Made by a program: the position numbers and the translations under genes | Shown: positions 36,485 through 38,545 of the stretch, in pieces | Numbering within the stretch: the stretch's first letter is position 1 | How the letters are laid out: each line of letters begins with the position of its first letter | Assembly (NCBI GenBank): GCA_021810045.1 | Contig: JAJZJR010000003.1 | Coordinates: 1 to 64,000 of the forward strand | Length of the DNA stretch: 64,000 nt | From: Thermoplasmata archaeon | Lineage (GTDB): Archaea > Thermoplasmatota > Thermoplasmata > Thermoplasmatales > Thermoplasmataceae | Direction of reading: 5' to 3' | Notes under the pieces: model-generated | The model's input: only the letters and a program-made list of their open reading frames with translations | The model's database searches: none | Told to the model about the DNA's origin: nothing

Positions 36485-36608
36485 TGTAATTCATAATCTT
36501 ATGTTGTTAATAACTCATGCATGAGAAACCTGAATAGTAAATAACTTATAGAAACTGCATTGGAATTTTGTTATGTTTTTGGTCAGTTTCTCCCAGCTGC
36601 CCTGAAAG

Positions 36609-38327
36609 TCAGTTATTCAGTATCCACTTGAAAATATCTGGAAAATCTCCCATGGGACCTGTACCAATCATGGTCAATCTCTTCTTTCCATTTTCCACAG
36701 TGACTTGGGGTTTTCCTTGACGGTCTAGCTTTATCCCACTTCTGAACACAATGAAATTGCCTGAGAAATACTCCTCAATGTAGGAATGAACATAATTCAG
36801 ATGATGTTTTAATATATCATAGGGGTGCATTTGCTGAATCTCTTCAGATAGCAGGTTGAATTTCATCAGAAGTATCGATACCGGCTTCTTGACTTTCTTC
36901 CCACCATTAAGAATTCTTATTGACTTGAGTAATGATAGGATGCTGAACTGCTCAGAATCCCACAAATCAAACTTATCACAATCCACTGCAATCATGTATC
37001 CAGATGCTGTCTGCAGGGTTACAAGGGAAGGATTTGCCCTTATCATCGCCTCCAATACTTCACCAGCCCTTTCAGAGCTCTTTGCAACGTCCCTCCAGAT
37101 TTCCCCGCTGGAATCGTTTATAGTCATTGAAACCTGCTTCTTCACCAACTTTCCATTTCTGCTGAGTACAAGGCTTGATCCTGTTCTGGTTTCCGATGCC
37201 GAGGTTCCTGAAGGCCAATTTCCTGAGAGCAGAGTTTTCAGGTCATTTCTTACAAGTTCACTCGCTTCCTCTACCAGGAACTTGAATCCAGGAACCGTTT
37301 TCACATACTGTCCTGCATAAAGAAAAAGCGAAACAAATGTGCTTTTTCCACTTCCAACGAATCCAGCCAGTACTACGTTTTTTATATCCATATTTTTCCA
37401 GGGTAGAGGGGATTTATTCCGGTCTTTTTCCACTGCAGCCATTTTACCTCTCTCGTTTTGTACAGGTGTGTTATCATGGGATATTTTGTCAGAAATTCTC
37501 GGAATGCCTAATGATTTACTTATCTTGTAATACCTTTTTCTAAGTGAATTTTCTGATATGCCGGAAGCCATAGAGATATTTTCCAAAGTCAGATTCTTCC
37601 CCGACATCAAGGAAGCCATATAGATTGAAGCAGCTGCAATTGATTCTATTCGCTTTTCGGAAAATGAACCTGTGGATAGGTATTTGCTTGCAATATCTTT
37701 GCTAATGGCTATAACATTTTCACCAAAACCGGCCTTATAACAGATTTTTTCCAGATACGCATTGAGACTGAAAGTAGAACCCATAGATTTTACACCCAAC
37801 CCCAATTTATTGTTTAGAAACCTGATGGCTTTTTCTACTTTCTTTCTGCTTACGTGGGTTATCTTAGAAATTTCATTTGGGGTTTGTGGAAAATGCCACA
37901 GTACAGAAGAGATATATAACGAACCACAGGCAACGGCTTCTGTGTTTTTTCTGTTGATTAGGTTATTGTAATAAGCCGAGGCGAATACCTGGGACGCATG
38001 TGATATGGCATCTTTGGGTAGGCCAAGTTTAATCCCGAATTCATTCACTATTCGGTTCCCATCCATATAAAGGGAAATATCGCCATAATCCTTTGTAATG
38101 CCTAACCTCGGTTGGATATTCGGATTGCTGTTAACATGGGTTCTTGCCCCTCTATCGTCCTGTTCTGAGTCGAAAGCCCTCCACTCTGGATCCTGATCTA
38201 TAAATGAATCCTCTAGAACCATACCACAATCATTACAAATCAGTTCTCCCCTCTCATAATCTCTAACGAGATGCTCGGATCCACACTCATAACATCTATT
38301 GTAATCTTCAGTGGAATCAAATGGCAC
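36609..38327 (-). CDS. TFB transcription factor fused to a GTPase-like domain
   Basis: 572-residue single frame. Residues 1-275 are an apparently complete TFB: zinc ribbon Cys12/15/31/34, B-finger region around 44-65 (DPEWRAFDSEQDDRGART), and two cyclin repeats (about 92-177 and 186-273). After a polar linker (276-312) comes a P-loop domain. Walker A is GFVGSGKST at 322-330, a switch II-like NDSSGE at 404-409 (DxxG), a strand YMIAVD (444-449) and KPVSILLMKFNLL (481-493), where a G4 TKxD would stand but reads MKFN. The segment NWPSGT (370-375) recalls double-GTPase (DO-GTPase2-like) proteins of conflict systems. TFB normally recruits RNA polymerase to TBP-bound promoters, and ordinary TFB is about 300 aa. 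The start is GTG, with a TATA box 25 nt upstream. No stop or frameshift separates the halves. Confidence 0.88.
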   Translation of the reverse strand: MPFDSTEDYNRCYECGSEHLVRDYERGELICNDCGMVLEDSFIDQDPEWRAFDSEQDDRGARTHVNSNPNIQPRLGITKDYGDISLYMDGNRIVNEFGIKLGLPKDAISHASQVFASAYYNNLINRKNTEAVACGSLYISSVLWHFPQTPNEISKITHVSRKKVEKAIRFLNNKLGLGVKSMGSTFSLNAYLEKICYKAGFGENVIAISKDIASKYLSTGSFSEKRIESIAAASIYMASLMSGKNLTLENISMASGISENSLRKRYYKISKSLGIPRISDKISHDNTPVQNERGKMAAVEKDRNKSPLPWKNMDIKNVVLAGFVGSGKSTFVSLFLYAGQYVKTVPGFKFLVEEASELVRNDLKTLLSGNWPSGTSASETRTGSSLVLSRNGKLVKKQVSMTINDSSGEIWRDVAKSSERAGEVLEAMIRANPSLVTLQTASGYMIAVDCDKFDLWDSEQFSILSLLKSIRILNGGKKVKKPVSILLMKFNLLSEEIQQMHPYDILKHHLNYVHSYIEEYFSGNFIVFRSGIKLDRQGKPQVTVENGKKRLTMIGTGPMGDFPDIFKWILNN

Positions 38328-38347
38328 ATACTGGCTAAATAGAATGT

Positions 38348-38357
38348 CTTATAATTT
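38348..38357 (-). promoter_or_regulatory. TATA box of the TFB-GTPase gene
   Basis: On the minus strand AATTATAAGA is centred about 25 nt before the GTG start at 38327. The mRNA is probably leaderless, and the gene has its own promoter, downstream of the tRNA-Arg gene. Confidence 0.5.
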
Positions 38358-38472
38358 TTTTCTATTTTATTATTTATTTCGGTCTATCGCTGTCCATTGT
38401 CTTCCGGCCCAATTAAATTGATTGGTACTGAGCAGACACCAACAATGGGAATCCAAATTACAACCGTGAAGA

Positions 38473-38545
38473 CGGGCCCGTCGGGATTCGAACCCGAATC
38501 ATAGGCTCCGGAGGCCTAGGTGATAATCCATTACACTACGGGCCC
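38473..38545 (-). tRNA. tRNA-Arg (anticodon CCG)
   Basis: 73-nt cloverleaf on the minus strand: acceptor GGGCCCG/CGGGCCC, anticodon stem TAGGC/GCCTA with loop CTCCGGA (anticodon CCG, codon CGG), T-arm TCGGG-TTCGAAT-CCCGA, discriminator G. No intron, no encoded CCA. Its 5' end directly abuts the stop codon of the upstream protein gene, so it is probably cut from a joint transcript. Confidence 0.95.

Follow-up and report, generated by a model that had tools for sequence, protein, structure and literature searches.

Among the genes in the stretch of DNA analysed here (64,000 nucleotides, referred to as the window), one raises a particular question: if a TFB continues in the same frame into a GTPase-like domain, is this a genuine gene, and can its product still act as a TFB or has it been put to some other use?

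The preliminary description reported such a fusion in a single frame, with the strand left out. Translation bore this out: a minus-strand ORF of 572 codons with a GTG start and no internal stops contains a TFB part (residues 1 to 276) and a DO-GTPase domain (approximately residues 314 to 572). Analysis of the 572 aa protein with Pfam gave matches to Zn_Ribbon_TF (6.9e-17), the TFIIB repeats (PF00382, two stretches, 3.7e-22) and DO-GTPase1 (PF19975, 5.7e-7). The last of these scored 29.5 bits against a cut-off of 27, and 27.5 bits, again above the cut-off, in a separate genome search. The domain suspected earlier to be of the double-GTPase type is thus one of a recognised family, DO-GTPase1/2.

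36609 to 38327, minus strand: TFB-DO-GTPase fusion gene (ORF translation and Pfam)
37389 to 37499, minus strand: linker between TFB and GTPase, residues 277 to 313 (translation)
38349 to 38354, minus strand: TATA-like TTATAA, 21 nt upstream of the GTG (sequence)

The spacing of the TTATAA element would fit a leaderless transcript of the fusion gene.

A check for normal TFBs elsewhere in the genome, as proposed in the preliminary description, found two, TFB1 and TFB2, and initiation is therefore independent of the fusion. TFB1 and TFB2 (L003/L004, G000:C43:78622-80967) are divergently transcribed neighbours, a pairing seen in many members of the family. Alignment of the fusion with TFB1 showed a near-perfect match over the ribbon and the initial portion of the reader, up to the motif DDRxART, with all four zinc ligands of the ribbon present. 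Approximately 30 to 35 residues, comprising the B-reader loop and the B-linker, are missing or replaced in comparison with TFB1.

38172 to 38300, minus strand: TFB zinc ribbon, residues 10 to 52, CxxC at 12 to 15 and 31 to 34 intact (Pfam PF08271, 6.9e-17; motif positions)
38055 to 38135, minus strand: shorter unrelated segment, residues 65 to 91, replacing the B-reader loop and B-linker of TFB1 (TFB1 alignment; the TFB core match begins at residue 92)
37500 to 38054, minus strand: diverged cyclin-repeat core, residues 92 to 276 (Pfam; TFB1 comparison)
37530 to 37556, minus strand: helix-turn-helix (HTH) recognition segment SENSLRKRY, with Arg263 kept and Asn260 replacing the BRE-contact Val (alignments)

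The two cyclin repeats are still recognised by Pfam, though they are strongly diverged. The identity of the core is 38% to TFB1 and 23% to TFB2, whereas TFB1 cores within the genus are 99-100% identical to one another. Near-invariant TFB core positions are retained at 37 of 86 in the fusion, compared with 62/79, 77/81, 75/78 and 77/78 in control TFBs that include the divergent third TFB of the sister species G001. Asn260 and Arg263 we take to be the equivalents of the human TFIIB residues (Val and Arg) with a role in BRE contact. The core sits on a very long branch in the tree, so its position there is not resolvable. The TFB had been called apparently intact; with the reader loop and linker gone, the core strongly diverged and the BRE-contact Val changed to Asn, that wording does not hold.

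The ribbon has had a different history from the core.

38138 to 38304, minus strand: tract in common with TFB1 of this genome (168 nt at 92% identity, of which an inner 138 nt at approximately 96%)

Over 165 nt the fusion differs from its own TFB1 at 18 sites, of which 13 fall in the two ends and 5 in the 138 nt between them. The TFB1 gene of another sister species, G004 (the same protein there as own TFB1), has 34 nucleotide differences from the fusion and 21 from own TFB1; at third positions the differences from the fusion are 25/55 for the G004 gene and 11/55 for own TFB1. The tract is thus younger than the G004 split. No similarity was found between the regions upstream of the fusion gene and of TFB1. 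Judged from these comparisons, the core and GTPase of the fusion are old and the ribbon tract is recent, and gene conversion from TFB1 would be the simplest account of its source. A newly copied ribbon can also come from neutral recombination.

The residue positions given earlier for the GTPase motifs (GFVGSGKST 322-330, NWPSGT 370-375, NDSSGE 404-409 and MKFN 488-491) are all correct.

36612 to 37388, minus strand: DO-GTPase domain, residues 314 to 572 (PF19975 above cut-off; identity to membrane GTPases)
37338 to 37364, minus strand: Walker A / G1, GFVGSGKST (motif)
37101 to 37118, minus strand: Walker B / G3 with the family glutamate, NDSSGE (motif)
36855 to 36866, minus strand: degenerate G4, MKFN (T/SKxD in seven compared relatives)

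Walker A and Walker B (NDxSGE) are retained but the guanine-specificity motif T/NKxD is not, and the earlier description of MKFN as a degenerate G4 agrees with the T/SKxD of the seven relatives. As G4 is degenerate, GTP binding by the fusion is doubtful. In some GTPases an Asp-to-Asn change at G4 alters nucleotide specificity, so the ligand of the fusion may be other than GTP. An AF2 model built from a two-row alignment had a pLDDT of 53 and a GTPase-like order of strands and helices. The 50 Foldseek matches listed for this model were all Ras-superfamily GTPases or complexes with one, none reaching an E of 0.001 and with low TM scores. The single-sequence AF2 model of the whole protein (pLDDT 39.5) was uninformative, and a profile search of the PDB gave P-loop-level matches only.

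The closest homologues of the GTPase half are membrane DO-GTPases of the same genus, one in the same genome (G000:C67:133126-134013, 37% identity) and one in G003 (C13, 44%). In the tree the GTPase half groups with the G003 protein (support 97/92). These proteins have hydrophobic N-terminal segments where the fusion has its TFB, and differ from it further in a disordered-looking linker, an operon setting and an intact TKxD. The locus in the source genome (L068, G000:C67:126000-141000) and L066 encode, besides the membrane DO-GTPase, a GAP1-N2-like protein, an Snf7/ESCRT-III protein, a Vps4-like AAA ATPase and several coiled-coil or unknown proteins; similar loci occur in G002, G045, G017 and G019. 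The Snf7 match is above its cut-off, and the GAP1-N2-like match, at 22.7 bits, is slightly below its cut-off of 24. The combination of membrane DO-GTPase, GAP1-N2-like, Snf7/ESCRT-III, Vps4-like ATPase and long coiled-coil proteins is seen in the archaeal loci L068, L066, L067 and L072-L074; PMC7159879 makes no mention of ESCRT or Vps4, and PMC8970359 none of a GTPase. PADLOC left the fusion unmatched; its likening of the Vps4-like ATPase to IetA was set aside, such resemblance being expected among AAA ATPases. No promoter motif common to the fusion gene and the partner operon was found beyond A/T-rich 8-mers. There is no GAP1 gene beside the fusion, whose neighbours are an alpha/beta hydrolase gene and a tRNA-Arg.

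A switch role in conflict systems, such as those of DO-GTPase/GAP1, is predicted for DO-GTPases, which often occur in pairs and near membranes (Kaur et al. 2020, PMC7159879). Those of the conflict systems (PF19975/PF19993, PMC7159879) have the P-loop, the Walker B with its glutamate and the overall domain in common with the fusion, but the N-terminus of the fusion is a TFB remnant and not a plain zinc ribbon or transmembrane helices, its G4 is MKFN and no GAP1 adjoins it.

On the sequence evidence we tentatively favour the reading that the fusion would be a lineage-specific accessory regulator, made from a duplicated TFB1 and a borrowed GTPase, with docking on RNA polymerase under GTPase control. 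In canonical TFBs the dock domain is the contact through which the zinc ribbon recruits RNA polymerase, and the linker serves to stabilise the template strand within the active site (PMC7289017). The ribbon of the fusion would dock as that of TFB1 does. With the reader loop and linker missing and the promoter-binding core weakened, ordinary initiation should be impossible, and the protein would therefore act in trans on RNA polymerase or on TFB1 complexes, most likely as a competitor or repressor and less likely as a co-activator resembling TFB3. The DO-GTPase domain would supply the input, and the availability of the ribbon would be set by the nucleotide state of this domain, or by its pairing with either the membrane DO-GTPase or the GAP1 partner of the latter. 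A trigger might thus change the GTPase state or exchange partners, expose the ribbon and so alter RNA polymerase activity, a chain that goes beyond the anatomy of the protein. The hypothesis of a tie between initiation and nucleotide level or a defence cue, put forward in the preliminary description, has circumstantial support in the tRNA-Arg hotspot described below and in the predicted conflict role of the family. Against a regulator stand the single draft genome, the lack of an orthologue, the degenerate G4, the lack of an adjacent GAP1 and the lack of a promoter motif common with the partner operon.

Known systems offer partial parallels. Compared with the canonical TFB1 of the family, the fusion has a near-identical zinc ribbon (DNA and protein) and likewise two cyclin repeats, but no B-reader loop or B-linker, a core only 38% identical and an added C-terminal GTPase. 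Sulfolobus TFB3 has no GTPase and a truncation pattern unlike that of the fusion. It is a TFB paralogue that is unable to replace canonical TFB and works together with it (PMC7289017). Saccharolobus TFS4, a general-factor paralogue turned RNA polymerase inhibitor, follows the logic of the favoured model, in that a duplicated factor keeps its docking on RNA polymerase and loses its productive part; TFS4, however, derives from TFS, not TFB, and has no nucleotide switch (PMC9501531). The viral protein RIP is a mimic of the B-linker (PMC9501531).

It is also possible, though unlikely, that the fusion is an alternative, promoter-selective TFB that binds TBP and an altered BRE and serves a small regulon, such as the DO-GTPase/ESCRT locus, with the GTPase switching it on. 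Pfam still recognises the ribbon and both repeats, Arg263 and much of the second repeat are kept, and the HTH is altered rather than lost. Extra TFBs exist in the genus and several TFBs provide promoter choice in haloarchaea (PMC7289017). This reading is opposed by the loss of the B-reader loop and B-linker, by the count of 37/86 near-invariant positions and by the lack of a common promoter motif at the partner operon. The extra TFB of G001 (L065:2179-3192, G001:C67) is divergent and unfused, has an intact linker region and adjoins a TrmB-like gene; what had been taken for a TFB fusion in G001 is this separate third TFB.

The site of the gene and its distribution bear on whether it has any function.

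36520 to 38465, no strand: segment missing from the sister species G001 (approximate bounds), between the tRNA-Arg and the alpha/beta hydrolase gene (synteny comparison)
38473 to 38545, minus strand: tRNA-Arg(CCG), whose 3' side is variable in the genus (comparison with relatives)

The gene order in G001 is the same (hydrolase, tRNA-Arg(CCG), a 161-aa gene, Elp3, Kdp) with a gap of only approximately 180 bp between hydrolase and tRNA, and the fusion is therefore a one-gene insertion of approximately 1.95 kb (or was lost from G001). In G004, where two contigs overlap at the tRNA, HicA, HicB and an Eco57I-type methylase occupy this interval; in G003 it contains a PIN protein and the reverse transcriptase of a group II intron (compared regions: window 36520-38472, L138 1-2500, L077 600-2900). 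As its contents differ among G001, G003 and G004, the 3' side of the tRNA is a site that harbours accessory genes, some of them of a defence type. A search for att-like repeats at the insertion found none.

No second TFB-GTPase fusion was found in 40 relatives, 77 family genomes, 400 class genomes (GTPase profile), 390 phylum genomes (PF19975), a species-wide genome collection (a pattern-based scan of limited sensitivity), or plasmids, phages and viral contigs; these genome sets overlap. In the genome collection the whole fusion protein gave no match, and GTPase alignment A2 matched nothing but the membrane GTPase of G003 (L111) and a KaiC-like protein (L112) that is unrelated. The plasmid and phage matches were ordinary TFBs only; one phage ORF from a viral scan was spurious and another viral scan gave no matches. 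Among the TFB ribbon matches listed for the order there was no frame above 390 aa. The papers searched describe no such fusion either, in keeping with the earlier remark that no described case was known. Elsewhere in the class, one other family has DO-GTPase-like proteins that stand alone and have zinc-ribbon-like segments at their N-termini (L120, L121, L123, L133).

Occurrence in a single genome, the empty site in G001, the eroded core on its very long branch and the lost G4 motif would suit a chimera of little or no present function, in which an old TFB duplicate and a GTPase drift in a variable site and the ribbon was overwritten by chance recombination with TFB1. The 572-codon frame is, however, intact despite the divergence, and the P-loop, Walker B and all four zinc ligands are retained. 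When the TFB1 core was mutated at random to the observed 38% identity the open frame survived in 1 of 2000 simulations, and for the GTPase half (44% identity) in none of 2000. Identities at codon positions 1, 2 and 3 are 0.57, 0.66 and 0.35 when the core is compared with TFB1, and 0.57, 0.71 and 0.37 when the GTPase is compared with G003, the third position being the least conserved in both halves. Both halves are thus evolved coding sequence and not a chance ORF. These results show past selection on both, and would be compatible with a recent loss of function. A chimera without present function is improbable, to about the same degree as an alternative TFB.

Slightly less probable is that the fusion is a decoy TFB that occupies RNA polymerase once a conflict or membrane system with a DO-GTPase is set off, giving a nucleotide-gated shut-off or switch; if true, global transcription in an archaeon would be joined directly to a GTPase pathway with a predicted role in defence or a link to ESCRT. 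Approximately 60% of DO-GTPases carry one or two N-terminal zinc ribbons (PMC7159879), and other members of the class have DO-GTPase-like proteins that bear ribbons, so that an ordinary zinc-ribbon DO-GTPase with the TFB piece as a protein-protein adaptor only, and no transcription link, was considered; this is quite improbable, since the ribbon is a recent copy of that of TFB1, TFB cyclin repeats come after it, and the class ribbon proteins seen have no likeness to TFB. An assembly or sequencing artefact joining two genes is most improbable: the source assembly is a draft of 81 contigs and the ribbon has a near-identical counterpart at a second locus (TFB1), but the TFB/GTPase junction has no repeat, the 18 differences from TFB1 in 165 sites of the ribbon show that the two copies were not collapsed, the diverged core occurs only once in the genome, and the 154 kb contig, with flanks syntenic with a sister species, argues against a misjoin.

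The fusion is apparently unique and is well bounded, with an informative pattern of loss and renewal. If it is functional, nucleotides would directly control a general transcription factor, and the DO-GTPase systems, which are poorly understood, would gain a transcriptional output open to testing. The loss of the reader loop and linker in nature, with the docking ribbon kept and even renewed, would also provide a clean test of which parts of a TFB are separable.
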